A stretch of DNA of 42,106 nt, from positions 1 to 42,106 of IMG/VR virus record IMGVR_UViG_3300020185_000103; one strand, 5' to 3'. Positions 10,201 through 33,535 of this stretch are shown piece after piece. Source of the stretch: a virus. How positions within the stretch are numbered: the first letter of the stretch is position 1; the number at the start of each line of letters is the position of its first letter. The position numbers were made by a program, and so were the translations under genes. Under the pieces are notes generated by a model. That model saw only the letters and a list, made by a program, of their open reading frames with translations, did no database searches and had not been told where the DNA came from.

Positions 10201-13200
10201 CTACACGATTAACTACACCATTGTCTGTTACACCATTAATTCTTAAGTCATTTATTTTGGGTCTATATGTTCTATCTTTTTGTAGTATTTGATCGTAGTC
10301 TGCATTGTAGGAAAAAAGATTTGTATCAAATAACAGTGTAAAATATTTACTAGGTTTAATAAGTGCACCAGCAATTTGACATGCAAACGCCCACTCACTG
10401 CTGCGTAACCAAGCATTTTCAACTGGACCACCGTCACCGATACGCCAACTGTTTCTATGAGCATTGTCGCCACCACTACTACTCGTAACACTATCAATAG
10501 GACTTACTAGGTTGCCTTGTGCATCAACAGGCAACATATCTAGTATGCCAGTACGTTTAATTTTAGCATCTACTGTATAAGTGGTAGACGTGCCGTCTGC
10601 ATAAATTTTACCGTCACGTAAATCTTCCCAGAGCACAGTATTACCGGCAGTGTATGGCGCTGGTCCATAACGTTGCTCCCACCAGGTGGGTTTAATATTA
10701 TATCCAAACATTTCCCAGGGGGTACTGTGTGGGGTGTCAGTATCATATAGCCAACGGTATGCCCCTCTCCAGTAACCAGGAAGTCTCCACTTATTGGTAA
10801 ATGTGGTATTAGAATAGTTCCAAGTGAAGGTATCATCGCTATTAAAGCCATTGTTGGTTGTATAGTCTAGTCTGTTCTTGTATGCCCAGCTAGCAAAATA
10901 TTTCCTATAGATGTTAACAAATGTATTTCTATCCCCTAGGGTATTTCTAAAATAGCCAGGAATAACATCAGCCCAATCAAACAAATCTCTGGTATAAGTT
11001 GTTTTTATATTATTAAAGATACGTTTTTCTAGTTCCAGGACGATATCGTCTCGCATGTCACCATATCCTACCCAGATACTTCCGTCATGCCCTTTTACGA
11101 CTGTCTGACTGGTACTGTAGCTATCGTCAGTGTATTTTTGAGGATACCACTTGGGCCATAGCCCCATCTTAGTGGGAGTAGGTGGCACAAAACTACCATT
11201 GGTATTATTATACTCTACAATTTGTAACTCATCACCCACTAGGGTAACGTAGTTTTTACTTAATTGGATAGCAATCTTGTTGGTCAAGATTGTGTAATCC
11301 TGTTCATTTACTAGTAGAATAAACTCATTATTTCTTTTAATGTATACTAGAATAGCTTGATTACTGACGGTATTTGCTTTGTACTCTGTAGTGAATTCAA
11401 ATTCTCTTTGTTTAGTATCATCTATCTGGTGATAAACTGCGTTTTTTTGACTACCCCAGGCAATCATATCCGTATAAAAGAATGGGAAAGTATCAGTCTT
11501 GGTTCCTGCCATATGGCTAATAATAGTATCCACTGCATCTTTGGGACTACGTAAATCTATATCTAAAGTGTTTATGTTATCCAAAAACTTAGTTTTAAAT
11601 CGGGTATATTCTTCCATACTATAACGCATTGCAGTTTCAAAGTTAACATCTTTGCTTGTAAGCAAGTACTGAGGAAGTATGTTGCCTGCACTATGTTGCA
11701 ATATTTTGCCAGGATATTTCTTATAGTCAATGTCACGAATATTATTTGATCCCAAGCTGTTGCCAACCAGTGTTGGAATATTTGTTGCTAATTCTGTTAA
11801 ATGGTTACGTGCCTGGCCTACAGTAATCTCAGTAAAATCTTCGTTATTAGCATTGTTTTCCAAGTTAAGTGGCACGTCGTAATAACCCAGGGAATTAACT
11901 GTAGGACTAATAACTTTGATTGTAACAACATCACCTTTATTCAGTGCATCAGTAAATGTTACAAAATATTTGTCATTAATAGTTACTTCTGTATATTTGC
12001 TGGGATCGACAAACAAATTATTTAAATAAACTTTGAGTGTGCTGAACCCGGACATTTCAGTCTTGGCACTGCCTATTTCAAAACTATAAAATTCTGTGTC
12101 GATATCATACTGGACAATTTGCCATTGTTCACTTGGGCGCATAACCTTACGCCAACCATTTTCTAAGGTACGTTTGGTAGTACCGTCAGATTGTTTTTTA
12201 AATTTGTGTACGTGTCCACTTTTAACAATTAAATTTGTAGCACCAGTGTCAGATTTAGTATACTGGAATGTGTCTTTAATATAGTTGTTTTCAAAGACAA
12301 TGTCTCCAATGGAATCAAAGTTTTTATATGTTAACGCAAATCCTAACTCGGTGTCTGCACTGCCAGTTGTAGCTCGTTTGTAGCTCAACAATTTGTTGCC
12401 GACAAATGTACTGCTTGGATATTTGGTACCATCACTGAAACTAGTGTGTGTAGCGTCGAATATATCAAACAATGGGTCCTGATTAATTTTAGTTTTTTGC
12501 TGTGCTGAAACCCAACCCGAAGTTGTATCTTTAAAATGGTATGCTTTGCCTTGTACACCCGTACCAAAGTTACTAACTAGTACGTCTCCAGGCTCAATTG
12601 TATCAATGCGTTCTAGTACAATAATTTTACTAGTAGTACTGTCGTTATCCTCATCTACTTTTTTAACCTGATAGACATTTTGTCTAGTGTCTGGGTCTTG
12701 CGTAAACACAACGGTAACACCAGGAGTCAGATTGAATTGCTCACTAAAGTATCCAACAGTGCCGTTTACATTACTAAGTGCATCCGTTTGCGTAACATCA
12801 ATCACATCAACATAACGTTTACCATTTGTACCATAGTTAAATAATTGTAGTCCTGCATCAAATTCGATAATTGGCCGTTTTGCTCTGGCAGTTTCTTCAA
12901 TTGTTGGATTGAATCCATTTAATGCCGCAGTTGCTTCAATAACTCTGCGGTGGAACCAACGGTTGTATCTGCTCCAAGCATTCAAGTCAGAGCTAGCTCT
13001 GTTAATTAATATATAATCTTGTAAAATTGGGGCGTCTTTAGTTTGCTCTAGTCCTCCGTTATCAAACGGATCACTGTCGTATCCGTTAACAAGAGTTTCT
13101 GAATACGGCTCAGGTGTTTTTAGGCTATCAACTTTGACTAGTTGAATGTTTGTGCCTACTCCCTCTACATACCATTCTCCTGCATATGTGCCTGGAATAA

Positions 13201-14671
13201 CGTCTGTGTTAAATTCTACTTTTAGCCCATTAATAAAGTTTACGCCATTGGGACTAGCATAACTGGATTGTCCTAGTATATCGTCTACTACGTTAATTCT
13301 TGCATTATTGCCAGGCTCTACTAAAACAATCTTACCAAAGCGTGTTGCGTCTATACCATCTTGGTAGAACAATGTATCTTGTATTGCTGTAATAGGCGGG
13401 ATAAGGGATAGGAATCCTTCAGCAGTTCTTTCAAACTCTCTATTACCATATTTAACGCCACTTTTGACGCCTACTTTTTTAAGTCTATCAATATCCGCGA
13501 GTCTAGTAAGTTGGATTGTGTCTGTCCCGCTAATATTAACGATGTTTACACGAAAGACACCATACCGTTCGTCAAATGTAAGTGTTGTGGTTGTATCAAA
13601 TGATCCCTGGGAGAGTGTTACTGGATCTGTGTTGCTGTCATAACCATAGCTGTCATACAAGCTGCCTTGTTCCCATTCGTCAGCATCTGGATCAGTAGTA
13701 GCAAAAATAATTGTTTTACCATCAATTTGTGTGACGCCGTCGATACCAGTATAATGCTCTGCAAAAAAATCACTAAGTACTCGGTTTTGTAATTCTTTGT
13801 ATGTGTGGTGTGTTGCAAAGTCAACTGTGTGTTGCTGTACCATTTCTACAACACGATTTTGACTATCAATAGTTGGTACTCGCCAAGTAATTGTGCCAAC
13901 TTCTGCACCATTATTTGTAACACCTACTACTTCTCTGGTGCTTACATTTCCTTGTGTAGTACTTTCTCCACTAAGCCCACGCTCAGTTTGAATCCAAAAA
14001 GGTGCGCCGTCTTGTTCTACTTCAAACGTGTATTCTCCGCCCCTAGCAAGATAAAGTGTTGGATTAGGGTTACTTGTACTGTTGTCAAATCTATAGAATG
14101 GCTCGCCAATTTTAATTTCTGTTTGCACCCCATCAAAGGGCTGCGCATCAAAGTTGGTGCTATCAAACGGATAGCGTTCGTAATTTACACTTTCCCTGAG
14201 TACTTTAAAACTATCCTGTGTGTCAACTGTACTACTAAAAACTTGTACACTATCTGGACCCTCTGGTAGCCAAAAATATTCACCATAGTTAACTAACTTG
14301 TCGTAATCAACAAAGCTACCCCAGTTGTAATAGTCTTGAGCAAATAAGTCTGTAGTTTTTGTACTGTTTCCATTGTAGTAATTTACTGCATTCAGCATAT
14401 CTGTGTACATGTGTACTGAATCGATCTTTTTATTACTATCTTTATAAACTACTGCTGGCTCTAACTGAAAATTTTGCCGTTCAACAGTGGTCTCTTGCAG
14501 ATAACCATCACCAACCACATAACCAGCAGAATTTTTCCTACCTATATAGCTATTGATCTTTACAGGCGCTGGTTCGCTTATCAGCTGATCAAGCGTGGCG
14601 TTAAGGAATTTTTTATTCTTACTACTCCTGAAAATTTCAGGCAGTAGTGTAGAACTTTTTCTAGTAGCCAT
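1235..14671 (-). CDS. Giant (4478 aa) virion structural protein, probable baseplate wedge/fibre component with FG-GAP propeller
   Basis: This single uninterrupted frame follows gp6 with a TAATG overlap, so it is translationally coupled to the wedge gene. The N-terminus (LPEIFRSSKNKKFLNATLDQ, then IGRKNSAGY and QLEPAVVYKD) matches, from memory, a conserved large structural protein of marine T4-like phages. It lies where T4 has gp7, which is only about 1030 residues. Visible modules are: beta-sandwich 'DGST..Y..' repeats throughout; a CBM5/12-like segment near 1825-1855 and another near 3647-3700; about seven FG-GAP-type repeats near 2225-2860 (for example FGYSLAISNDDRFLFVGSPG and FGHSIAVDAIGQTLVVGAP); and paired GTGYTSNP/GSGYTKTP repeats near 3550-3620. 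No enzyme motif or membrane segment was seen. A baseplate-anchored, surface-exposed adhesin is my inference. Confidence 0.75.
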   Translation of the reverse strand: MATRKSSTLLPEIFRSSKNKKFLNATLDQLISEPAPVKINSYIGRKNSAGYVVGDGYLQETTVERQNFQLEPAVVYKDSNKKIDSVHMYTDMLNAVNYYNGNSTKTTDLFAQDYYNWGSFVDYDKLVNYGEYFWLPEGPDSVQVFSSTVDTQDSFKVLRESVNYERYPFDSTNFDAQPFDGVQTEIKIGEPFYRFDNSTSNPNPTLYLARGGEYTFEVEQDGAPFWIQTERGLSGESTTQGNVSTREVVGVTNNGAEVGTITWRVPTIDSQNRVVEMVQQHTVDFATHHTYKELQNRVLSDFFAEHYTGIDGVTQIDGKTIIFATTDPDADEWEQGSLYDSYGYDSNTDPVTLSQGSFDTTTTLTFDERYGVFRVNIVNISGTDTIQLTRLADIDRLKKVGVKSGVKYGNREFERTAEGFLSLIPPITAIQDTLFYQDGIDATRFGKIVLVEPGNNARINVVDDILGQSSYASPNGVNFINGLKVEFNTDVIPGTYAGEWYVEGVGTNIQLVKVDSLKTPEPYSETLVNGYDSDPFDNGGLEQTKDAPILQDYILINRASSDLNAWSRYNRWFHRRVIEATAALNGFNPTIEETARAKRPIIEFDAGLQLFNYGTNGKRYVDVIDVTQTDALSNVNGTVGYFSEQFNLTPGVTVVFTQDPDTRQNVYQVKKVDEDNDSTTSKIIVLERIDTIEPGDVLVSNFGTGVQGKAYHFKDTTSGWVSAQQKTKINQDPLFDIFDATHTSFSDGTKYPSSTFVGNKLLSYKRATTGSADTELGFALTYKNFDSIGDIVFENNYIKDTFQYTKSDTGATNLIVKSGHVHKFKKQSDGTTKRTLENGWRKVMRPSEQWQIVQYDIDTEFYSFEIGSAKTEMSGFSTLKVYLNNLFVDPSKYTEVTINDKYFVTFTDALNKGDVVTIKVISPTVNSLGYYDVPLNLENNANNEDFTEITVGQARNHLTELATNIPTLVGNSLGSNNIRDIDYKKYPGKILQHSAGNILPQYLLTSKDVNFETAMRYSMEEYTRFKTKFLDNINTLDIDLRSPKDAVDTIISHMAGTKTDTFPFFYTDMIAWGSQKNAVYHQIDDTKQREFEFTTEYKANTVSNQAILVYIKRNNEFILLVNEQDYTILTNKIAIQLSKNYVTLVGDELQIVEYNNTNGSFVPPTPTKMGLWPKWYPQKYTDDSYSTSQTVVKGHDGSIWVGYGDMRDDIVLELEKRIFNNIKTTYTRDLFDWADVIPGYFRNTLGDRNTFVNIYRKYFASWAYKNRLDYTTNNGFNSDDTFTWNYSNTTFTNKWRLPGYWRGAYRWLYDTDTPHSTPWEMFGYNIKPTWWEQRYGPAPYTAGNTVLWEDLRDGKIYADGTSTTYTVDAKIKRTGILDMLPVDAQGNLVSPIDSVTSSSGGDNAHRNSWRIGDGGPVENAWLRSSEWAFACQIAGALIKPSKYFTLLFDTNLFSYNADYDQILQKDRTYRPKINDLRINGVTDNGVVNRVEGYNQFLENYMTGYGKNKSDLQTRIQNLTQNLAYKVAGFTDKSQLKVIIEVASPSSVNQNIFLPDENLAVHLQESQPLDRVFYSGVNIIKRVNGYEVKGFDIDDPVFRIIPSQRSQNVRLKTIGSRTFTLYDDFKREIALVPYNTLFTSINQVADFLNAYNRYLNYKGITFESQNSNGKLLDFNTGIDEFGLWIEQNWEPGTVLSISPGLQQLTIDRPLTTVADLSKTIALRNNNSAPIKVKDYNVERIDNKTIVSVNNENEYMYSAKLDPVQYEHVLVFDNITIFNDIIYQPSLGNRQERLKIVGTRSGNWNGTLQAPGSTLSQDTVDVWQSQQDYKRADTVSFRNKIYVASKDHTGSITFDNANWLLVKNMKTGLLQNTASKANSFQSFYDTDSINLESATDKAGKGQIGFRNREYLENLGLDDTSQIKFYQGMLKNKGTTAALDKLIKAKLTNLEQEINVYEEWGFRVGEYGSISSNQVIELEIDEANAQKNPFNLQLIDNGEAVDADVIGVIEKNIYKKPDNYTKNIFLDRATGAVKNDLLSAGFPRLDDVDLTVFSIDELETELTNKIDTIGRADKIWVASRNSTWDMLRVSETAVNIITVEQNVAPQITFSTDGNHGLVKDDYIIVKGSNIVKGCYKITSVQSPTQFTVIDENLTVDAIDNTLLPLFKLESVRYATPNLISTTNPLYGWAPNEKIWVDSTSTGKWAVFNKRNPYDANTQISANSVSASDQQGASVDVSADGLTFISGSPGRTTVVNFAKDENGTFNETGEKTISSISSTLGGFADSVAYGKEWVAVGAPGTDTNRGAVFIYNRTTTGDINIKQAIVPSIGAQNDEFGYSLAISNDDRFLFVGSPGSDEVYMYSLTTHAVTDDNIATLTCDGSTSTYSLGFTPVGGDELLVQDRNGKTYLNVTDYTVSGSNITFISVPVASLVVVVRRSSHFKFLHRISGTASSRFGHSIAVDAIGQTLVVGAPHDSSSVNKAGSISIYHQEIERFIGDGTTTDFTTTGTIPDNMEFIEVNGTTMLAATGAFGGFTSDSSANRYRRSGNTISTQFIPSAGDIIEVYIGQWNKVQDSAQGDDYGLLASELKSDSELFGWSVGIDTYGAIIAVGAPGEDSVNVNTGSVYVFIDEARRFGNTTTKATSFDTDASSTIFINNVEVALTNTSDPATVKATIDAKNISEVTTSVAGNLLTISSTNKTTNTKLSVRPGTGADYESTSKLNFEPFVMTQRFDNPNGSDNENFGLDVRFDRFTPTGNNAAQTLVVSSDKATTLLPTRFDVVSTIETTTFDNGSTQYIENVNESGAAYVYALLEPAGVAGVNNSPLYAYGQQLRSTTIDHFDSFGCAIAVLDNRIYVGSKNDDQFKANGGSTYEFTNTTRTGVWNTLRTQDDKVDINSVNRVITYDKRNQQIISFLDTIDIAKGKLPGRAQAELNFVTEYDPAIYSIGNSARLQVNANNAWNNEYVSKTWWDITQCRILDYEQGELAYRRNNWNAFFPGSEIVVCEWVESQVLPSEYVANGGEGVPLYPDDSAYSQNLQFNSISNTTKTLYYYWVTNKDSYPNNEVRSISTNGIQAQINNPITAGIKFISLISNNSIMLNNIKPDLNDKNTIVAINYDKLRNDGVLHSEFDLVAEGDPDQIIPNRIWNKIVDSMSGADIQSNIIPDPTLSAGEKYGIGIRPRQTMFVNRQEAAKVMVDFVNKEFAKLPIVRNNVITGFTVSDPIPTKNSGEWNQKVADITTRDYLNTEILSAGYLVLVEQDTNFDNQWTIYILEGEGDQKSWTLRKIQGYDTARYWDYVTWYATGYDVHTVPNYQVTNEPQLLTLTQATEGQIAKVLSNDDGNFSLFCKKGANWDEVVIERGTIKLRDTIWDYSNATYGSYVGYDNSNFDFGQFDRIPQVELRQLLNTIKNDIFINEQRLLFNTLFFRLIEYSLHEQNFGVDWVFKSSFIKTIHKQRDLNQYPTYKNDNSLFIEQFIQEVKPYHTKIREYITAYDGNDNFDGDITDFDVHTFYDEQLGYFRKPSGDYQGDYITRIAGPNKPWADNYGYYLNTVEIYAAGTGYTSNPEVTVSLPDLVGGTQATVQAISNGDSIVSAQVLNKGSGYTKTPTITIDTGTAGTGCVLLPRIKNDTHREFDTTLKFDRITYSSNIKTWSANTAFAYEDLVVYQNPDTKVQELYQVHVTDGTTTGATFSTEDSTGTVVFVAYADENVASAADRIEAYYVPLTGMIGDDLALLQEGTDYTSTRVGGVGFDKEPGFDSANFDTLGFDDFEIDVDGLRVLSGQSAFDTTISSTFKDLALGTRPEDINIDGGAFVDEYNSHAPEEVVPGRVFDTLDMEIYTDPSDDFEADGNSFPITYRTYLGDGSTKRYNYAGDIQADQVTLVIAYLGSTPERNFTLDYETREIVFDTAPAANSNIFIYGYGSTGEKLTHEETIIADGSTLAYALAIPFTRVAQMQVLVDGQETTNFTFTEVDGRTVVSFISIVPGNGQELHFLTSSLAAGRLPFTKPVQKTFTLDGSNRTISIGETVQYGEPLEGNIIVELNGIRLTPTNASHYTLDGSTTYYRAPISKGETIANTIDGQIGVAHIKKSTNQTINLNRYQDYNVTTLAEAFDVTADSSVTTVDADSVTADQDGAGTDYRAVQLNSALTSGDSLIVYYNNGEYTTDGTNLYINEEISISNGDELVVTMFSNHDPLRIQTQVFKGLGTDITIVAFDYDGIAYDSNEYDGLTEAGTAQARYRLDRTLTATSNLNYLWVTVNGTKLHPGQYGVDGTGRLDLSNFDGVTLDADSIITVTSISENIVQPTTGFRVFYNMLGETEYFRLCADTSTKLSVELKPADTKIYVKDASVLTTVTPTSKFPGVIFLGNERITYWEIDTTNNYVTNIRRGTGGTRFATEHRVGTTVVNSSEDERLPQTNTHTNTWYDLGTGTAANGLGLQQSAGLNAQFLKDCEAIIPNYLVELSADSYIVDDYVAEGYIEEQQ

Positions 14672-25167: not shown

Positions 25168-25196
25168 TTGCTATTTGTATTTATAGACAGTATAAT
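25168..25196 (+). promoter_or_regulatory. Sigma70-like promoter for the gp55-gp47-gp46 operon
   Basis: TTGCTA (25168-25173) and a perfect TATAAT (25191-25196) are separated by 17 bases, the ideal spacing for host sigma70. The predicted start is near 25203, before an AAAGGA Shine-Dalgarno and the gp55 ATG at 25221. Early or middle expression of the gene for the late sigma factor fits T4 biology. Confidence 0.6.
25178..25185 (-). promoter_or_regulatory. T4-type late promoter (TATAAATA) for the baseplate block
   Basis: An exact match on the minus strand to the T4 late -10 octamer recognised by gp55. It is 28 bases upstream of the first ATG of the 25-kb minus-strand baseplate and fibre block, a typical leader length. 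It lies within the spacer of the divergent plus-strand sigma70-like promoter. Confidence 0.8.
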
Positions 25197-25220: not shown

Positions 25221-26027
25221 ATGCGACGTAAAAAATATCTTAATAACAAAGACCTGTTAAAGGAAATACACAAGTCCAAAAATTCTTTTAGTAGCTATGT
25301 AGATGAAGACAGAGATCATCAGTATGACATTATTTTACCCAGCTTAGAGCGGGTAAACATTCGCACAGTTGCACAGGCTAAACGTAATCGTGCCGATAGG
25401 CTGGGCAAACGGGCTTATGAAGAAGCTGTACTGCAAGGCCAACAGGTAAAACAAGCACAGTTTGCAATTGACTGGAAAAAAATAGACAAGTATGATCTAG
25501 TATTTAGAATTATGTCCTACGACCATATTCCACTTGAACCTGGCAGAAAAAAGAATCCTAAAACAGTAATGGATCATCATGTTAAACTCAACTTTCCTCC
25601 CTATCAGCATTTTAGATTTGATGAAAACAACGAATTAATATGTGTGGGCAAAAGCCACTGGACTGGTGGTATGGAGAACGGACACTTTACCACAGAAGGT
25701 GGCGAGATAACAAAAAACCTGGCAATGATGTTCCTAAAACTTGTGGAGAGGTATGGCACCAGATACAACTGGCGCAACTACACCTACAATGATGAAATGC
25801 AGGGCACTGCTATAACTCAGTTGTGCTATATGGGATTACAGTTTAATGAAGATAAAAGTGACAATCCTTTTGCTTACTACACTGCAACCATTACCAACAG
25901 TTTTACCAGAGTACTTAATCTGGAAAAGAAGGGCCAGAATATCAGAGACGACATACTGGAACAGAACGGACTGAATCCTAGTTACACTAGACAGTTTGCC
26001 AACACTGACACAAAAAAATCAGAGTAA
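25221..26027 (+). CDS. 55: Late-transcription sigma factor gp55, with internal insertion
   Basis: gp55 replaces host sigma on RNA polymerase and directs it to TATAAATA late promoters. The N-terminal KKYLNNKDLLKEI parallels T4 gp55 NNKELLQAI. The later segment from about residue 165 (KNLAMMFLKLVERYGTRYNW, YNDEMQGTAITQLCYMGLQF, KSDNPFAYYTATITNSFTRV) aligns with the T4 core (KNPHAYITQACFNAF). Between them about 125 residues have no counterpart in T4 gp55 (185 aa in total). The C-terminus (TRQFANTDTKKSE) lacks the hydrophobic/acidic sliding-clamp-binding tail (SLDFLYE) of T4. First gene of the plus-strand operon; AAAGGA lies 6 bases before the ATG. Exact late octamers in the window are consistent with an active gp55. 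Confidence 0.88.
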   Translation: MRRKKYLNNKDLLKEIHKSKNSFSSYVDEDRDHQYDIILPSLERVNIRTVAQAKRNRADRLGKRAYEEAVLQGQQVKQAQFAIDWKKIDKYDLVFRIMSYDHIPLEPGRKKNPKTVMDHHVKLNFPPYQHFRFDENNELICVGKSHWTGGMENGHFTTEGGEITKNLAMMFLKLVERYGTRYNWRNYTYNDEMQGTAITQLCYMGLQFNEDKSDNPFAYYTATITNSFTRVLNLEKKGQNIRDDILEQNGLNPSYTRQFANTDTKKSE

Positions 26028-26030
26028 AAT

Positions 26031-27041
26031 ATGAACTTATTTAAACGAGCAATATTCTTCACGGATATTCATTTTGGTTTGAAAAGCAATTCACGCACAC
26101 ACAACCAGGATTGCTTAGACTTTGTAGATTTTGTTATCGAGCAGGGTCGTGCAAATAATTGTGAAACTTGTGTATTTTTGGGTGACTGGCATCATAACCG
26201 TGCTAGTATCAACATTAGTACACTCAACTACAGTATACGTGCATTTGATCGACTAAGTGAAGAATTTACGCAGGTTGTATTTCTTCCTGGCAATCATGAC
26301 GAGCACTATCGCGATACTAGAGAAATGAATAGTGTAGCCTGGCTTAAAAAATATGATAACATTAGGCTGTATGATGATATTACAGTAGAAGATGATGTTT
26401 GTGTTATGCCCTGGCTGGTTGGCAAAGAGTTTGCTCAGGTGTCAAAAATTGAATGCAAATATATGTTTGGGCATTTAGAATTGCCTAGCTTTTATATGAA
26501 CGCAATGGTGCGCATGCCTGATGTGAGTGATCTTAAGCGTGAGGATTTAAAAAGTGAAACGGTGTTTACTGGTCACTTCCATAAACGTCAAACAGCAAAA
26601 AATATTACATACATTGGTAATAGTTTCCCACACAACTACGCGGATGCTGGTGATGACGCTCGCGGCGCGATGGTGCTAGACTGGGGCGGTGAGCCTGAAT
26701 ATATTGAATGGCCCGACGCCCCAAAGTATCGCCGCTTTTTATTAAGTGATGTACTTGAAAATACAGACACTGTTTTGAAGCCAAACATGTATTGTCGTGT
26801 TGAACTAGACGTTGACATTAGTTATGAAGAAGCAAATTTTATTAAGGAACAATTTATTCCAGAATTTGGATTACGAGAACTTAGTATTATCCCCAGGGTA
26901 GGCTCAGAAGAGCATGCTCTTAGTTTTGAAGGAGAAGTAAACTTTGAAAGCGTAGATAGTATTGTCACTTCACACCTAACACAATTGGACAGTCCGCAGT
27001 ATGACAAAAGTCTTATGTTAGATATTTACAGGAATCTATAA
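26031..27041 (+). CDS. 47: Recombination endonuclease subunit gp47 (SbcD/Mre11-like phosphoesterase)
   Basis: gp47 is the nuclease subunit of the gp46-gp47 complex that resects DNA ends for recombination-dependent replication. All calcineurin-like phosphoesterase motifs are present: D12-x-H14 (FFTDIHFG), G51-D52-W-H54, G87-N88-H89-D90, GHLE at 147-150 and GHFH at 181-184. The length of 336 residues is close to T4 gp47 (339). It starts 3 bases after the gp55 stop, and its own stop overlaps the next ATG (TAATG). That next gene is a radical SAM enzyme, not gp46, which is the unusual point here. Confidence 0.95.
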   Translation: MNLFKRAIFFTDIHFGLKSNSRTHNQDCLDFVDFVIEQGRANNCETCVFLGDWHHNRASINISTLNYSIRAFDRLSEEFTQVVFLPGNHDEHYRDTREMNSVAWLKKYDNIRLYDDITVEDDVCVMPWLVGKEFAQVSKIECKYMFGHLELPSFYMNAMVRMPDVSDLKREDLKSETVFTGHFHKRQTAKNITYIGNSFPHNYADAGDDARGAMVLDWGGEPEYIEWPDAPKYRRFLLSDVLENTDTVLKPNMYCRVELDVDISYEEANFIKEQFIPEFGLRELSIIPRVGSEEHALSFEGEVNFESVDSIVTSHLTQLDSPQYDKSLMLDIYRNL

Positions 27042-28576
27042 TGCCACAGATTAACTTAGTAGAGTTTCATACCAACGGAAAAAACTGGTTATATAACTCT
27101 ATTAAGGCTCATAAACAAGAGAATATCCCTGATGATTTTCGACTAGAAGTCTTGTACAATGAATATGACATATTTAACGATTTGACTAACCCAGGGATAG
27201 CTCTTGTTGCATTGCACGAAATACTGTCACTGCTAGATTTCCCTTTATTTTTTGTTACCATAACAACTACCAATACTAATATTCACCCACAATTATTGTA
27301 TTGTGTTGATCATTTTACTAATGAAATAGATTCTATTTCATATAACATAATACCCGGAACTTGGGAAAGTCGTGAAAATGATAAGGACACACTATGTATA
27401 TTGCCATGGATTCACACGTATGTTAACCCACAGGGACAGGTTGGTCCATGCTGTGAGTTTAACGATAAGTTCGAGTTAGGCAACATTAACGACGACAGTT
27501 TAGAAAATATTATCAACAACGAGCCATACAAGAAGTTACGATTAGACTTATTGAATAAAAAGCGTCCTGACATTTGCAATAATTGCTGGTCAAGAGAAGA
27601 CAGTAATCTGACTAGTAGACGATTAGATAGTAATCGTAATTGGAAAAAGTTTATGGATATTCCAACTAAGCAAACTAGCCCAGACGGAGAGTTTACAAAT
27701 TTTAAATTAAAGCATTTAGATATTAGATTGAGCAACGTCTGCAATTTTATGTGCAGGATGTGTAGTGGAAAGTTTAGTAACAAAATAGCAAATGAAGAGA
27801 ATAGGTTATACGGCTCTACTACATATTTGGATAACTTAGTTATCGACAAGAGCACGTTGTTAACTTATATAGAGAACAACTTAGATCATATAGAAAGTGT
27901 CTATTTTGCAGGCGGTGAGCCAATCTTAAATCAAGAGCATTATAAAATACTTGATATCTTCATCGATAATAAATTAGATGTGGCGGTTACCTATAATACA
28001 AACTTCAGTATGTTGCGTTTTAAAGATTATGACTTACTGGATTACTGGAGTAACTTTACTAATATTGAGATTGGAGCCAGCATAGATGTATTTGGAAAAC
28101 AAGCAAATTACATCAGACACGGTGCAGAATACGAGGTTTTAGAACAAAACTATCATAAAATAAAAGACCTTCCAAATATAAAATTTAAAATAACAAGCAT
28201 CTTGCATCTAATGAATGCTTATAATCTGCCTGTGCTACAAAAACACTGGTTAACAAACTTAGGGTTATCTGCATCTAACATGAGGGTTAATACTGTTATA
28301 ACCCCTAATCATTTGCAGCTAACAGTTCTTCCAGAACAATTTAAACAGGAATTGAACCTGGTGTATGAAGATCATATTTCCTTCTTGTCATCGTTAAATG
28401 ACACAGATCACTTAGTGTCCTACTGGACTAAAGCATTAAAATTTATGAATAGCAGGGATGATAGTTATATGTTGCCGGAATTCTTTAGGCTCAATGATAA
28501 CAAAGATCGTGCTAGAAATCAAAATTTTGAAGAGTTTTTTCCAGAGTTTTCGTTATTGCGTTCTCACTCAAAATAA
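27041..28576 (+). CDS. Radical SAM enzyme with N-terminal SPASM/twitch-like Cys cluster
   Basis: A 511-residue protein inserted between gp47 and gp46. The radical SAM 4Fe-4S motif CX3CX2C is at C234, C238 and C241 (CNFMCRMC), followed by GGEP at 291-294 for SAM binding. Ahead of this core, C119, C137, C138, C179 and C182 (LPWIHTYVNPQG, GPCCEF, CNNCWSRE) form a SPASM/twitch-like auxiliary cluster site. This N-terminal placement is typical of proteins annotated 'twitch domain-containing radical SAM' in phages and cyanobacteria. Residues 1-110 are a separate domain I do not recognise. It is coupled to gp47 by a one-base overlap and ends 13 bases before the chosen gp46 start. Reaction and substrate are unknown; SPASM-type relatives often act on peptides. 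Confidence 0.85.
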   Translation: MPQINLVEFHTNGKNWLYNSIKAHKQENIPDDFRLEVLYNEYDIFNDLTNPGIALVALHEILSLLDFPLFFVTITTTNTNIHPQLLYCVDHFTNEIDSISYNIIPGTWESRENDKDTLCILPWIHTYVNPQGQVGPCCEFNDKFELGNINDDSLENIINNEPYKKLRLDLLNKKRPDICNNCWSREDSNLTSRRLDSNRNWKKFMDIPTKQTSPDGEFTNFKLKHLDIRLSNVCNFMCRMCSGKFSNKIANEENRLYGSTTYLDNLVIDKSTLLTYIENNLDHIESVYFAGGEPILNQEHYKILDIFIDNKLDVAVTYNTNFSMLRFKDYDLLDYWSNFTNIEIGASIDVFGKQANYIRHGAEYEVLEQNYHKIKDLPNIKFKITSILHLMNAYNLPVLQKHWLTNLGLSASNMRVNTVITPNHLQLTVLPEQFKQELNLVYEDHISFLSSLNDTDHLVSYWTKALKFMNSRDDSYMLPEFFRLNDNKDRARNQNFEEFFPEFSLLRSHSK

Positions 28577-28589
28577 AGTACAATTACAT

Positions 28590-30347
28590 ATGTTTAAACT
28601 AAACACACTAACCGTACGGAACTTTATGAGCGTGGGCAATCAAACCCAGGCTGTAGACTTTGACCGTAGAGACTTAACTCTTGTGCTGGGTGAAAATTTA
28701 GATCAAGGAGGTGACGACTCAGGCGCCAGAAATGGCACGGGTAAAACCACAATCATCAATGCACTCAGTTATGCTCTCTACGGTCAAGCATTAACTAATA
28801 TTAAAAAAGATAACCTAGTTAATAAGACCAACGGCAAGTCTATGATGGTTACTGTTGACTTCGAGTTACACGGCATCACGTATCGTATTGAACGTGGTCG
28901 TAAGCCCAACGTACTCAAGTTTATGGTTGGTGAAGTTGAAACTGAAGAACAACAAGGCGACAGTAGAGAAACGCAACACTATATTGACAAATTATTGCAC
29001 ATGAGTCATGAGATGTTTAAGCATCTTGTTGCGCTTAACACTTACACGCAACCATTCCTTAGTCTAAGTGCAAATGATCAGCGTGATATAATTGAACAGA
29101 TGCTGGGCATCACTCTGTTAAGTGAAAAGGCAGATGCACTTAAAGAGCTGTGTAAAGAAACAAAGAACATGATTACTGAAGAAGAGTATCGTGTTAAGGC
29201 AGTTGAAGACGCAAACAAGCGAGTTGAAGAGCAGATTGATAGCCTTCGGAAAAGACAGAAGCTCTGGCATGCAAAACGCGATGAAGATGTTGCTAGCCTT
29301 AAGGACGGTATTGATGGTCTAAGTCATGTTGATATTGACAGCGAGCTTGCTAATCATAAGTTACTTGACGGATTTTACGAAAATCAAAAGAAACGGCAAG
29401 AAGCAGAGCGTTGGATTGTTGGAATTGACACTGATAATACTAAGCAAGAAAAGTTAATCCTACGTCTAGATAAAGAAATTGCACTACTTGAAGAACATAA
29501 ATGCAGTACGTGTGGCCAGGAAATTCATGACGGCAAGCAGGAAGAAATTTTGGCTAGTAAAGTAGCGACAAGACAAGAAGCAACTATGTCTATACTTGCT
29601 AATGAAACGCAACGTGCGGATCATTTAGAAATATTAAGTGAAGGTGTGTTGGGAGTTGCTCCAAAAGTATTTTATGATACAATTGATGATGCATATAACC
29701 ACCGTAGTAGTTTGGATAGTTTAGCAAAAGAGCTAGAAAATCGCAGTAATGAAGCTGATCCATACGCAGAACAAATCGTGGAGATGACACAAACTGGCGT
29801 TGAGCCTGTTGACTGGAATACAGTTAACGAACTAGTACGTATACGAGATCACCAGGAGTTCTTGTTAAAACTATTAACAAACAAAGACAGTTTCATACGC
29901 AAACGTATTATTGATCAGAACTTGCAGTTCTTAAATGCTCGATTAACTCATTATCTTGACAAGATGGGATTACCTCATTCAGTTCGTTTTATGAACGACT
30001 TAGGTGTGGAAATACAGGAACTGGGACGGGATCTAGACTTTGACAACCTTAGTAGAGGAGAGCGTAATAGACTTATTTTAAGTTTAAGTTGGGCGTTCCG
30101 AGACGTTTGGGAAAGCCTATATCATCCTATCAACTTGTTGTTTATTGACGAAGTTGTTGACAGCGGAATGGACGTTAGTGGAGTTGAGAGTGCACTAGCA
30201 GTACTTAAACAGATGGCAAGAGAACGTAACAAGAGTATTTGGCTTGTGTCACACAAAGATGAACTAACTGGTAGAGTTAACAATTTGCTCAAGGTTGTAA
30301 AAGAGAATGGATTTACTAACTATGACACTGATGTTGAGATGGTATGA
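28590..30347 (+). CDS. 46: Recombination endonuclease subunit gp46 (SbcC/Rad50-like ATPase)
   Basis: SMC-type ATPase that partners gp47 in DNA end processing. Walker A is at about 45-53 (GARNGTGKT), a zinc-hook CSTC at 305-308 sits between coiled-coil arms rich in Lys and Glu, the ABC signature begins at about 487 (LSRGERN), Walker B is near 515-520 (LLFIDE), and an H-loop histidine follows (LVSHKDE). The 585 residues match T4 gp46 (560). I chose the ATG at 28590 because MFKLNTLTVRNFMSVG is the true family N-terminus. An in-frame ATG at 28458 would add 44 unrelated residues read across the 3' end of the radical SAM gene. The stop overlaps the next ATG (ATGA). Confidence 0.95.
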   Translation: MFKLNTLTVRNFMSVGNQTQAVDFDRRDLTLVLGENLDQGGDDSGARNGTGKTTIINALSYALYGQALTNIKKDNLVNKTNGKSMMVTVDFELHGITYRIERGRKPNVLKFMVGEVETEEQQGDSRETQHYIDKLLHMSHEMFKHLVALNTYTQPFLSLSANDQRDIIEQMLGITLLSEKADALKELCKETKNMITEEEYRVKAVEDANKRVEEQIDSLRKRQKLWHAKRDEDVASLKDGIDGLSHVDIDSELANHKLLDGFYENQKKRQEAERWIVGIDTDNTKQEKLILRLDKEIALLEEHKCSTCGQEIHDGKQEEILASKVATRQEATMSILANETQRADHLEILSEGVLGVAPKVFYDTIDDAYNHRSSLDSLAKELENRSNEADPYAEQIVEMTQTGVEPVDWNTVNELVRIRDHQEFLLKLLTNKDSFIRKRIIDQNLQFLNARLTHYLDKMGLPHSVRFMNDLGVEIQELGRDLDFDNLSRGERNRLILSLSWAFRDVWESLYHPINLLFIDEVVDSGMDVSGVESALAVLKQMARERNKSIWLVSHKDELTGRVNNLLKVVKENGFTNYDTDVEMV

Positions 30348-31222
30348 GCAGAGAAATAAAAGTATTACATTTGGAAAGCACTGACGTATGCCAAGCAGCA
30401 TGCCCGTTATGTGCTCGTGAAACTAATCCAGAGTTTAATAAAAACATAAAGAATCACTTACGTATTGATCAGTTGCTAGAGCATTTTGACGACAATGCTA
30501 TTGCTAAATTAGACAAGGTGTTTATGTGTGGCAATTATGGTGATCCAGTTGCTGGGAAGCATACACTAGACATTTTTAAATACGTCCGTAATATTAATCC
30601 TAGTATAACACTTGGTATTAACACAAACGGTGCGTTGCAGACTACTACATGGTGGTCTGAAGTAGGCAAATTATTTAATAACCCTAATGATTATGTGGTG
30701 TTTAGCATTGACGGACTAGAAGACACAAACTCTATATATCGTGTAAACGTTATATGGGAAAAAGTTATGAACAATGTCAAAGCATTTATTGATGCTGGCG
30801 GAAATGCTCACTGGGATATGCTAATTTACCGGCATAACCAACATCAGGTTGATGCTGCAGAGCAGTTATCCCGAGACTTGGGGTTCTCATGGTTTCGGGC
30901 CAAAGTTTCAAAAAGAACCCCTATTGCTGGATTAGAACAGCCTGATGATTGGGCTGATCCATTGCCAAATACTGGCCCAATTAAATGCCATGTTTTAAAT
31001 GAACAGAGTGCATATATTGACGCACAGGGCAGATTATATCCTTGTTGCTGGTTAGGAAATAGTTTAGATGTTTTAATTAGTGATATCAGTGAAGTAGAAA
31101 AAACTTGGAATACAGATAATCCAAATCCTACTTGTAAGTTAGCATGTTCTACTAGTAACTCTGTAAGTAGATTTACAGATCAATGGAGAAAAGAGATCCA
31201 AATAATGAAAGACGAATCATGA
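30344..31222 (+). CDS. Radical SAM protein (second of three), SPASM-like C-terminus
   Basis: 292 residues. The cluster motif CX3CX2C is at C16, C20 and C23 (CQAACPLC), right at the N-terminus. The usual GGEP is replaced by CGNYGDP (62-68). NTNGA (93-97) and FSIDG (120-124) follow at the positions of later SAM-binding strands. A C-terminal SPASM-like set is visible: C215, C234, C235, C264 and C268 (YPCCWLGNS, CKLACS). It overlaps gp46 by four bases (ATGA) and overlaps the next radical SAM gene in the same way. Sequence parallels with that neighbour, including GDP, INP, TNG, TWW, DG and YRVN in order, show the two are paralogues. Substrate unknown. Confidence 0.82.
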   Translation: MSREIKVLHLESTDVCQAACPLCARETNPEFNKNIKNHLRIDQLLEHFDDNAIAKLDKVFMCGNYGDPVAGKHTLDIFKYVRNINPSITLGINTNGALQTTTWWSEVGKLFNNPNDYVVFSIDGLEDTNSIYRVNVIWEKVMNNVKAFIDAGGNAHWDMLIYRHNQHQVDAAEQLSRDLGFSWFRAKVSKRTPIAGLEQPDDWADPLPNTGPIKCHVLNEQSAYIDAQGRLYPCCWLGNSLDVLISDISEVEKTWNTDNPNPTCKLACSTSNSVSRFTDQWRKEIQIMKDES

Positions 31223-32253
31223 GTAACTTAGCTCTCGAGCATTGGCACATTGAAGTAAGTAGTATTTGTACTTTACAATGCCCAAGATGTACTCGTGCAG
31301 AAGTTCCTGAAACACTGTTAAATCGTAGTTTAGATTTAAAGTTTTTTCAAGAGCAGATTGGTCAAGAAAGAATATCTCAAATAAAAAAAATTAGTTTCTG
31401 TGGCGATGATGGTGATCCGATTTATGCTAAACAGTTTATTCAAATTGTTGAATGGATTAAGAGAATAAATCCAGCTATACAGTTACTAATTATAACAAAC
31501 GGAAGTTATAAAACAGAAACATGGTGGAAGTCACTATCAGATATACTTAATGAACATGACGAGATCCACTGGAGTCTAGATGGCTGGGACCAAGAAAGCA
31601 ATAGTAAGTATCGTGTTAATTGTAATTGGGAAAGTATAATATCTGGATTAACTACTTTTGTCAAACACAACCAAGTAACTTATACTGTAATTGCATCAAT
31701 AGCATTTAGATTTAATGAACTGGATCTTGAAAATATACACAATTTAGCAAAAATACACACTATTGACTGCTGGCAACTTACTAAAAGTACAAAATTTGGC
31801 AGTAAATATCCTGACGCATACGGCAGTAACGACTTGCTTGAGCCACTTAACTCAGATCTTGTTGCTGACGGTCATCGATTTGAAAGAGTCCAAACTATAC
31901 TAAGCGACAAAGTTCGGCCTGGATCAGATCTCAAAGAACTATTTTGGAATCGTGCTTTAGAACTAAATCAAAGCAATGAGTACCCTGCTTTATGTTATAT
32001 AGGAAACAAGGGAGTGTTTTTAAAAGCAACAGGAGAATTTTATCCGTGTTGCTGGACTGCACTACGTTATCCACATAATAAAAAATGGAATGATCTTGCA
32101 GAAACTAAGTTTAACATGTATAATAATACATTAGATAAAATACTCCAAGACGAGTGGTGGCAAACAGGTTTTAAGAAATTTGATAATTTAGAATGCCAAA
32201 CAAAATGTATTAAAAGTAAACTTTTAGATAAATCTCACGTAACTGAGTGGTAG
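31219..32253 (+). CDS. Radical SAM protein (third of three), paralogue of the preceding gene
   Basis: 344 residues from the ATG at 31219, which overlaps the previous stop as ATGA. An upstream in-frame ATG at 31183 lies within the previous gene and adds 12 polar residues, so it is less likely. CX3CX2C is at C17, C21 and C24 (CTLQCPRC), and CGDDGDP at 61-67 stands in for GGEP. TNGS and LDGW follow. A C-terminal SPASM-like cysteine set (LCYIGNKG, YPCCWTALRYP, CQTKC) is present. It shares order and spacing of motifs with the preceding radical SAM gene, consistent with tandem duplication. It is followed by a 48-base gap and then the GIY-YIG gene. Function unknown. Confidence 0.82.
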   Translation: MSNLALEHWHIEVSSICTLQCPRCTRAEVPETLLNRSLDLKFFQEQIGQERISQIKKISFCGDDGDPIYAKQFIQIVEWIKRINPAIQLLIITNGSYKTETWWKSLSDILNEHDEIHWSLDGWDQESNSKYRVNCNWESIISGLTTFVKHNQVTYTVIASIAFRFNELDLENIHNLAKIHTIDCWQLTKSTKFGSKYPDAYGSNDLLEPLNSDLVADGHRFERVQTILSDKVRPGSDLKELFWNRALELNQSNEYPALCYIGNKGVFLKATGEFYPCCWTALRYPHNKKWNDLAETKFNMYNNTLDKILQDEWWQTGFKKFDNLECQTKCIKSKLLDKSHVTEW

Positions 32254-32301: not shown

Positions 32302-32739
32302 ATGACAAATTGGATAAAGTCTGACGGGGTAACATTAACTGAAATTACAAAACTTCCTGAAGATGTAGTAGGGTTTGTTTACTTGATTACTAACAATACT
32401 AATGGCAGACGATACATTGGCAAAAAACTGGCACAATTTAAGAAAACGAAACCACCGCTTAAAGGCAAAAAAAACAAACGGCGCACTACTGTAGAATCAG
32501 ACTGGCGCGATTATTATGGCTCATCAGACGCACTAACGGCAGACATCGAAGCACTCGGCAAAAGCTGCTTTAAACGTGAGATACTCTACTATTGTTACAG
32601 TAAAGGAGAGTGTTCTTACATTGAAGCAAGAGAACAGTTTAGGCATAAAGTATTAGAATCAGATGAATGGTATAATGGACACATACGTGTTCGTGTTCAT
32701 CAGAGTCAAAAGATACTTACAGAATCAAATCAAGACTAA
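32302..32739 (+). CDS. GIY-YIG nuclease-like protein
   Basis: A 145-residue protein with the GIY-YIG core: FVY at 25-27 and YIG at 38-40 (GFVYLITNNTNGRRYIGKK), then a basic stretch (about 42-61), WRDYYGSSD (68-76), REIL (92-95) and a candidate catalytic glutamate in YIEARE (107-112). This fits a minimal GIY-YIG domain. Members are known as homing endonucleases (T4 Seg family) and in repair or host-DNA degradation. No DNA-binding extension is visible, which argues against a full homing enzyme. It precedes a hairpin-rich non-coding region. No clear Shine-Dalgarno; the 48-base leader is A+T-rich. A mobile role is possible but not shown. Confidence 0.7.
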   Translation: MTNWIKSDGVTLTEITKLPEDVVGFVYLITNNTNGRRYIGKKLAQFKKTKPPLKGKKNKRRTTVESDWRDYYGSSDALTADIEALGKSCFKREILYYCYSKGECSYIEAREQFRHKVLESDEWYNGHIRVRVHQSQKILTESNQD

Positions 32740-33165: not shown

Positions 33166-33283
33166 CACGGAACGTTAGTGAAGTGTTTGGATGAACGTTA
33201 GTTCATCCGTTTAGGTTGACAGAATCATATAGTAAGTTATAATAAGAGTATTGTCCAGGTGTAAATACTAAACCTAAAACGGA

Positions 33284-33535
33284 ATGTATATGGATGCTAA
33301 AGGAATGTATATGGATACTATAGATAAAAGAACAAAAAGCGAAGTTGAAGCTGCTTTTATTGAATTTGTTGACAAAATCCAGGACTTAGGATTTAAATTT
33401 GATTTATTTGATAAGGTAGAACTCACGTATATCAAGGGTGATGCAGTCTTAAGCCCACATAGCATAGGCAATAAACTTACTTTACGTGCTGAAGAGTACG
33501 TATCAAGTGATAATAAAAACCCCCCGACCACTTAG
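33284..33535 (+). CDS. Small protein of unknown function with duplicated start region
   Basis: Up to 83 residues; I do not recognise the family. The first 42 bases are a near-perfect duplication of a 21-base unit, giving MYMDAKG-MYMDTID. Each copy carries GGA six to seven bases before an ATG (33290 and 33311). The second copy has the stronger AAAGGA site, so the functional start may be 33311 (74 residues). The body is a helix (KSEVEAAFIEFVDKIQDLGF) followed by short strands (KVELTYIKGDAV) and an acidic/polar tail. There is no signal peptide or membrane segment. It ends tail to tail with the minus-strand gene, with a 4-base overlap. Last gene of the plus-strand operon. Confidence 0.5.
   Translation: MYMDAKGMYMDTIDKRTKSEVEAAFIEFVDKIQDLGFKFDLFDKVELTYIKGDAVLSPHSIGNKLTLRAEEYVSSDNKNPPTT

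Follow-up and report, generated by a model that had tools for sequence, protein, structure and literature searches.

Organization of the locus

The window analysed in this work, a linear virus record of 42,106 bases (IMG/VR record IMGVR_UViG_3300020185_000103) from a large marine phage, carries three genes for radical S-adenosylmethionine (SAM) enzymes, here named rSAM1, rSAM2 and rSAM3, packed among the genes for the recombination proteins gp47 and gp46. The order, all on the plus strand, is gp47–rSAM1–gp46–rSAM2–rSAM3; gp47 and rSAM1 overlap by 1 base, 13 bases separate rSAM1 from gp46, and the gp46/rSAM2 and rSAM2/rSAM3 pairs overlap by 4 bases each (Table 1). A preliminary description of this DNA had this order, the overlaps and the gap right in every detail, and its view that co-expression is likely is supported. 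Its map has to be extended at both ends, as the block begins with gp55 and runs on into a SegE-type gene. The genes of the block are probably co-expressed, possibly from a candidate sigma-70-like promoter upstream of gp55, a weak prediction given that the scan returned 42 sites in the real sequence against 31.6 in shuffles. Among named phages, PA5oct, a jumbo phage, and its kin have the gp47 closest to that of the window (48.8%). For the SegE-type gene, the PHROG 447 label 'NAD synthetase' looks wrong; Pfam points to a SegE GIY-YIG endonuclease.

Table 1. Features of the gp55–gp47–gp46 block in the window.
Feature	Positions	Strand	Evidence and remarks
Candidate sigma-70-like promoter upstream of gp55	25168..25196	+	10/12 matches; weak evidence
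gp55-like late sigma factor	25221..26027	+	phrog_12791, E 2e-76; first gene of the block; before gp47 in most surveyed blocks
gp47 / SbcD-like nuclease subunit	26031..27041	+	phrog_100, E 3.6e-70
rSAM1, slot B cargo	27041..28576	+	NF033640, PF13186, PF04055
NT module of rSAM1 (residues 1-118)	27041..27394	+	hmmsearch; hhalign
SPASM/twitch auxiliary cluster region of rSAM1	27395..27589	+	PF13186, residues 119-183; C119, C137/138, C179, C182
gp46 / SbcC-like ATPase subunit	28590..30347	+	phrog_77, E 5e-99
rSAM2, radical SAM with C-terminal twitch-like cysteines	30344..31222	+	PF04055, 39.9 bits
rSAM3, slot C cargo, relative of rSAM2	31219..32253	+	PF04055, 30.6 bits; alignment with rSAM2
SegE-type GIY-YIG gene, usual downstream border of the block	32302..32739	+	PF19835, E 3.6e-36

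Domain composition of the three enzymes

All three enzymes belong to the radical SAM superfamily: the window holds three PF04055 matches above cut-off (E values of 4.0e-12, 1.8e-9 and 1.7e-8), in reading frames with no internal stops, and each enzyme has a CX3CX2C motif. For rSAM1 (PF04055 score of 29.5 bits in one search and 26.9 in another), the motif is C234/C238/C241 and was invariant in 22 sequences; for rSAM2 it is C16/C20/C23, with the same columns in rSAM3, and it was invariant in 18 sequences.

Ahead of its core, rSAM1 shows a SPASM/twitch match (residues 119-183, PF13186, 1e-15), the cysteines of which are conserved across the 22 sequences, and the enzyme is a member of NF033640 (349.7 bits against a cut-off of 170, residues 116-504). 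Its architecture thus comprises an extra N-terminal domain of about 115 residues, the SPASM/twitch region and the radical SAM core, and its structure model reached a mean predicted local distance difference test score (pLDDT) of 85.5. When sequences of solved structures were searched, a BtrN-like aminocyclitol dehydrogenase matched residues 116-183 of rSAM1 only, that is, the twitch region (E 0.0013). A cobalamin-binding role of the N-terminal domain was considered and rejected, there being no Pfam B12-binding match and a strong profile match to a different kind of protein, described below.

The other two enzymes are relatives, with about 25% identity, and share an invariant PCCW and a C-x3-C near the C-terminus, although a Pfam SPASM search gave no match for either. 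With respect to families that could name their function, only matches far below cut-off were obtained: rSAM2 reached 39.7 of the 170 bits required for NF033640, TIGR04317 (tungsten cofactor oxidoreductase radical SAM maturase) gave 46.4, 52.3 and 54.0 bits against a cut-off of 380, and prokaryotic viperin (NF038283) gave 30.1 bits with rSAM1 and 20.5 with rSAM3 against a cut-off of 180. By sequence, the match of rSAM2/3 among solved structures was MoaA (E 2e-4). The preliminary description had credited all three enzymes with CX3CX2C and additional SPASM-like cysteines. The motif and the extra cysteines are indeed present in all three; nevertheless, rSAM2 and rSAM3 lack a Pfam SPASM match, and rSAM1, SPASM-like as it is, has this region at the N-terminal side and differs from an ordinary SPASM enzyme by its additional domain.

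A conserved block with three optional cargo slots

Relatives of rSAM1, rSAM2, rSAM3 and gp47 were collected from IMG/VR, and their gene order was mapped by profile search. This yielded 137 blocks out of 227 sequences (window included), once 3 copies of the window, 52 sequences without both genes and 35 exact duplicates had been dropped; since only exact duplicates were removed, near-identical contigs remain among the 137. The rSAM3 and gp47 searches comprise the best 80 of 171 and the best 80 of 355 matches, respectively, and favour near relatives, while rSAM counts rest on profiles of the three types and leave other kinds (e.g., in L101) uncounted.

In these related uncultivated jumbo phages, gp55–gp47–gp46, usually followed by SegE, forms a conserved block with three optional cargo slots: slot A between gp55 and gp47, slot B between gp47 and gp46, and slot C after gp46. 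The three rSAM types were found in slot A in 7 blocks, in slot B in 13 and in slot C in 99, and in any slot in 100 of the 137, a proportion that does not reflect frequency in nature, since rSAM queries supplied part of the sample. Among the gp47-found loci (best 80 of 355), 66 had a complete gp46, 19 of them with and 47 without an rSAM of these types. The empty arrangement, gp55–gp47–gp46 without insertions, is seen in PA5oct. In T4 (NC_000866, 36444-40157), slot A holds a-gt and the homing endonuclease gene mobB, and slot B holds 46.1 and 46.2. In one group of contigs (L127-L147), SegE is missing after rSAM3 and a PDDEXK_15 endonuclease-like gene stands in its place.

Linkage of rSAM2 and rSAM3 to gp46

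The association of rSAM2 and rSAM3 with gp46 is real and non-random. Of 65 rSAM2-found loci, 60 had the gene directly after gp46 and 3 within 4 kb; the exceptions were L067, where it is split into two frames and still follows gp46, and L068, where it lies elsewhere. For rSAM3 (best 80 of 171), the corresponding figures were 50 directly after gp46 and 23 within 4 kb, with 7 loci lacking gp46 in view. In 30 long contigs, the rSAM2/3 profile gave 31 strong matches (at least 246 bits), of which 27, compared by hand with the gp46 positions, fell within about 2.5 kb of gp46; the remaining four were two in G002, one in G003 and one in G012, where no gp46 was found. Weaker matches to this profile occurred elsewhere in several of the 30 contigs. 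Since the same contigs contain 203 rSAM matches overall (of which the match table gives only the best), most rSAMs of these phages lie outside the gp46 block. Where rSAM3 adjoins gp46, the two genes overlap by four bases in 26 of 31 blocks; the junction of gp46 with rSAM2 is mostly eight bases (40/60 blocks), and four bases in 9/60. Genes of the rSAM2 or rSAM3 type away from gp46 were also seen in L124-L126 and L068, in the latter within the same stretch as rSAM1-type genes.

These data bear on the proposal to survey gp46/gp47 neighbourhoods for the same trio, in which scattering at unrelated loci would point to random cargo. Scattering does not describe rSAM2 and rSAM3, which are tied to gp46. 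The trio as such, with an rSAM1 bearing its N-terminal domain, is rare (5/137 blocks), and, as seen above, most of the gp47-found gp47–gp46 loci carry none of these enzymes.

Recent exchange between phage lineages

Comparison of the window with L004 showed a much more recent movement of rSAM1 and rSAM2 between phage lineages than of the adjoining gp47 and gp46. Synonymous divergence (pS) was 0.72 for gp47 and 0.66 for gp46, as against 0.14 for rSAM1 and 0.23 for rSAM2, the proteins of which are 93% and 90% identical. Nucleotide identity changed in steps coinciding with gene borders: about 0.72 in gp47, 0.92-0.97 in rSAM1, 0.60-0.75 in the gp46 interior and about 0.95 in rSAM2. Two of the three genes, one upstream and one downstream of an old gp46, were thus traded. 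The rSAM1 pattern was repeated in L163, which is close to L004 (gp47 98.8%), and a third lineage (L006) has rSAM2 in common with the window (pS 0.22, against 0.74 for gp46). Over its first 50 codons, gp46 has a low pS that may reflect constraint and not co-transfer, since it was also seen with L006, without rSAM1. As a counter-case, rSAM2 of L069 has a pS of 0.63 and is as old as the L069 gp46.

Mantel correlations with gp46 were 0.84 for gp55, 0.74 for gp47, 0.63 for rSAM3, 0.57 for segE and 0.48 for rSAM2; 0 of 500 permutations reached the observed values, and all in-block comparisons were positively correlated. In most block pairs, moreover, the rSAMs were less similar than gp46. For both reasons, recent exchange holds for this marine group and not for every pair. 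Taken with the variable occupancy of the slots, it argues that the rSAM genes are mobile cargo sharing a transcript and not part of the nuclease.

A glycosyltransferase-like module at the N-terminus of rSAM1

A profile of the rSAM1 N-terminus (hereafter the NT module) detected the same domain in other slot A and slot B cargo, and the iterated search converged at 34 open reading frames (ORFs). Aligned with hhalign, independently built profiles of the rSAM1 and the non-rSAM versions matched with a probability of 98.3 and an E value of 1.8e-14, while two controls gave a probability of 0.1. In the non-rSAM versions, the NT module is followed by a C-terminal domain, either in one protein or in two adjacent genes. 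Each of the 25 blocks with an NT module has exactly one copy, never more, carried by rSAM1 in 9, by the fused form in 6 and by the split form in 10 (counted from listings).

The model of one fused form (L109; predicted template modelling score, pTM, 0.86) matches the two-Rossmann GT-B fold of glycosyltransferases. When compared with known structures over its whole length (VIA), all 50 matches listed were glycosyltransferases or sugar synthases (Z 11.4 to 8.6), the best being T4 BGT (Z 11.4, root-mean-square deviation (rmsd) 4.5, 273 aligned). By sequence, no solved relative of this cargo was found up to E 1. In the rSAM1 model, the NT module has the same strand-helix order, at a confidence lower than in the core. 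Judging from these profile and fold predictions, the first 115 or so residues of rSAM1 are homologous to the N-terminal half of a protein predicted to be a GT-B glycosyltransferase. In GT-B enzymes, it is mainly this half that contacts the acceptor.

Neighbouring cargo, rSAM arrays and bacterial relatives

Other slot cargo includes a sulfotransferase, a Methyltransf_24 enzyme, short-chain dehydrogenases, an AMP-binding enzyme and other rSAMs, together with a DUF6071 match just under cut-off. By eye, SGNH-, amidinotransferase-, asparagine-synthase- and 2-oxoglutarate (2OG)-oxygenase-like proteins (the last with an NCBIfam match below cut-off) as well as homing endonucleases were also recognized. 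Twenty rSAM-bearing stretches from long contigs were picked because of their rSAM matches, and 16 of them had at least four NF033640-like rSAMs. In the arrays looked at closely, a carbamoyltransferase (PF02543/PF16861), GT-B-type proteins and a weakly GT2-like protein, so labelled from PF13641 and PF10111 matches below cut-off, stand beside the rSAMs; the carbamoyltransferase was present in 21 of the 30 long contigs. Comparable gene sets are found in Campylobacter phage CP220 and Pelagibacter phage Mosig.

Bacterial relatives of rSAM2 come mainly from metagenome-assembled genomes (MAGs) of Bdellovibrionota. Thirty of 35 bacterial loci were covered, the weak matches L360-L364 being left out. 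Among these 30 loci with the rSAM2 type, 13 also had the rSAM1 type, 4 the rSAM3 type and 2 all three; 5 had a close relative of the GT2-like protein of the phage arrays, and several had glycosyltransferases. Company of this kind was absent from the Microcoleus loci. Two contigs with rSAM2 relatives, in Pacearchaeota (L330) and Pelagibacter (L356) MAG bins, may be misplaced phage DNA.

With regard to the remainder of the window, a perfect sigma-70 consensus (TTGACA, 16 bases, TATAAT; 33216-33243, plus strand) lies within the 544-base gap after SegE, upstream of a small ORF (33284-33535) without family matches, and an ORF of 4478 amino acids (1235-14671, minus strand) lies close to baseplate genes. 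No Rfam match to a riboswitch or other known RNA was found in the window.

Possible function of the radical SAM enzymes

We lean towards the reading that the three rSAMs are radical enzymes of a phage-encoded sugar or glycan modification, carried as cargo of the block. Their status as cargo follows from the empty sites in relatives, the variable occupancy and the recent exchange of rSAM1 and rSAM2 relative to the older gp46 and gp47; sugar or glycan chemistry is indicated by the NT module, the GT-B cargo, the neighbours in slots and arrays and the bacterial glycosyltransferase loci. Placement in the operon would give the rSAM genes expression and homologous targets for crossover; work on DNA ends would not be the reason for it. 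Through its NT module, rSAM1 would place its radical SAM centre at the very acceptor glycosylated by the alternative GT-B cargo. Equipped with a single auxiliary [4Fe-4S] cluster, it would then act on C-H bonds of this sugar, by oxidation, epimerisation or some other rewriting. The enzymes rSAM2 and rSAM3, with their twitch-like auxiliary cysteines, would take the same product through additional steps. The likely outcome would be a change in a surface polysaccharide of the host or the decoration of a glycoconjugate, which might for instance block rival phages. It is conceivable, if doubtful, that the acceptor-binding GT-B half is a swappable adapter, which with a donor half adds a sugar and with an rSAM core rewrites the same acceptor, the gp46/gp47 operon being the site of exchange by crossover.

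A number of observations weigh against this glycan reading. The fold neighbours of rSAM1 include the sugar/nucleoside enzymes BlsE (Z 13.0, rmsd 3.5, 218 aligned) and DesII (Z 12.0, rmsd 4.3, 232 aligned), but anSME (Z 12.8), SkfB, CteB, SuiB and MoaA are practically tied with them, so that the search is neutral between sugar enzymes and SPASM peptide or protein maturases. The Foldseek E values for the GT-B model are weak (best 4.9e-4), and its best VIA matches are DNA glucosyltransferases (T4 BGT and AGT). A search of the 30 bacterial loci for the NT module found none, and rSAM3 shows no sign of recent exchange (L070, pS 0.82). Substrate, reaction, product and expression are all inferred. With regard to a surface-glycan cluster, GT-B, sulfotransferase, short-chain dehydrogenase and carbamoyltransferase genes were seen in relatives, outside this window; with only a 42-kb piece in the window, glycan genes or an array belonging to this phage would be out of view.

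The fold ties with anSME, SkfB, CteB and SuiB, along with the SPASM match in rSAM1 and weak profile matches to peptide maturases, would also fit SPASM-type maturases, three enzymes installing a crosslink, an epimer or an oxidised residue in a phage or host protein. We regard this as unlikely, given that no curated maturase model was matched at cut-off and that the identified neighbours are mostly sugar-type enzymes and not peptidases or exporters. In addition, the gaps of 13 and 48 bases are too short for a precursor peptide gene within the block, although one may lie elsewhere. Hypermodification of DNA, in which the rSAMs and the GT-B cargo would decorate phage DNA bases in the manner of T4 a-gt, seems less likely still, even though it keeps weight because both the nearest folds of the GT-B cargo and the T4 slot, where a-gt lies between 47 and 55, involve DNA glucosylation. 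The carbamoyltransferase seen in 21/30 long contigs belongs to the 5-carbamoyloxymethylcytosine family (PMC8670742; here and below, statements on cited papers refer to excerpts of their text). There, carbamoyltransferases of modified contigs co-occur with the dCMP hydroxymethylase/thymidylate synthase family, and those of unmodified contigs adjoin glycosyltransferases, among others. In our set, the thymidylate synthase/dCMP hydroxymethylase family (PF00303) occurred in only 4 of the 30 contigs, which are fragments, and the arrays have several glycosyltransferase-type paralogs each, both points speaking against DNA as the target. A TET/JBP search was uninformative, with 0/30 contigs matched and the control likewise silent.

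A diffusible sugar or amino-acid compound aiding the infected cell, made by a secondary-metabolite pathway of the kind put forward as one option for a jumbo cyanophage cluster (PMC7824862), would account for the AMP-binding, amidinotransferase-like, carbamoyltransferase and asparagine-synthase-like neighbours; we consider it improbable, as no complete assembly line was seen in the block and glycosyltransferase-type proteins predominate around the arrays. The proposal that the enzymes share a function with the DNA-end-processing complex, by modifying gp46/gp47 or DNA ends or by repairing DNA, has the overlapping genes and the conserved position of rSAM2/3 after gp46 on its side, and we nonetheless judge it very improbable. 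It is at odds with the 47 of 66 gp47–gp46 loci without these rSAMs, the empty PA5oct site and the rarity of the trio, and with a lateral exchange independent of gp46/gp47, in which rSAM1 and rSAM2 were swapped between phages whose gp46 and gp47 are synonymously near-saturated. The Mantel correlations of rSAM2 and rSAM3 with gp46 are likewise below those of gp47 and gp55. Furthermore, the same rSAM types in Bdellovibrionota chromosomes adjoin each other and glycosyltransferases, and the other slot genes encode enzymes of the glycosyltransferase, sulfotransferase, methyltransferase, dehydrogenase and esterase-like kinds and some endonucleases, not DNA-repair proteins.

Relation to known systems and significance

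Phages rich in rSAMs, rSAM cassettes and phage glycan clusters are already in print (PMC2853527, PMC5332604, PMC7029224, PMC7824862). Both rSAM1 and the array enzymes match NF033640, the twitch domain-containing radical SAM family (N_Twi_rSAM), the name of which assigns no function; rSAM1 differs by its extra N-terminal GT-B-half-like domain. In Campylobacter phages CP220 and CPt10, one interchangeable cluster combines five rSAM genes with a glycine amidinotransferase and nucleotide-diphospho-sugar transferase domains; it was interpreted as boosting host metabolism, the region is shown without gp46/47, and the proteins are about 23% identical (PMC2853527). In pelagimyophages, rSAM cassettes were gained and lost among glycosyltransferase genes interpreted as changing the lipopolysaccharide O-chain, but in a tail-fibre hypervariable region and not in the gp46/47 operon (PMC7029224). 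A marine T4-like viral genome has 12 rSAM genes, a very high number, discussed in terms of Fe-S metabolism with no mention of a gp46/47 linkage in the excerpt (PMC5332604). The capsule or secondary-metabolite clusters of jumbo cyanophages share the glycosyltransferase, carbamoyltransferase, 2OG-oxygenase and methyltransferase repertoire, while a search of that text gave no occurrence of 'radical SAM' (PMC7824862). As for T4 a-gt, this gene is GT-B cargo (the AGT fold being GT-B) that likewise occupies slot A, next to a homing endonuclease gene; its product, however, acts on hydroxymethylated DNA, and no rSAM is involved. Within the open-licence PMC literature, we found no report tying rSAMs to gp46/gp47 in the parts of the papers available, none on Bdellovibrio together with rSAM and SPASM, and none of the gp46/47 site, of exchange at fixed positions or of an rSAM fused to a GT-B half.

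Marine-phage rSAMs are abundant and have so far been read in terms of Fe-S metabolism or general metabolic boosts. The locus described here suggests another reading that can be tested, in which a borrowed glycosyltransferase domain directs radical enzymes to sugars; it also connects enzymes without assigned function in phages and in Bdellovibrionota. Because cargo is traded at fixed positions in a core recombination operon, phage fitness genes may be found by scanning the gp55–gp47–gp46 slots. If the adapter proposal were true, radical SAM chemistry guided by half of a GT-B fold would represent a novel enzyme architecture.

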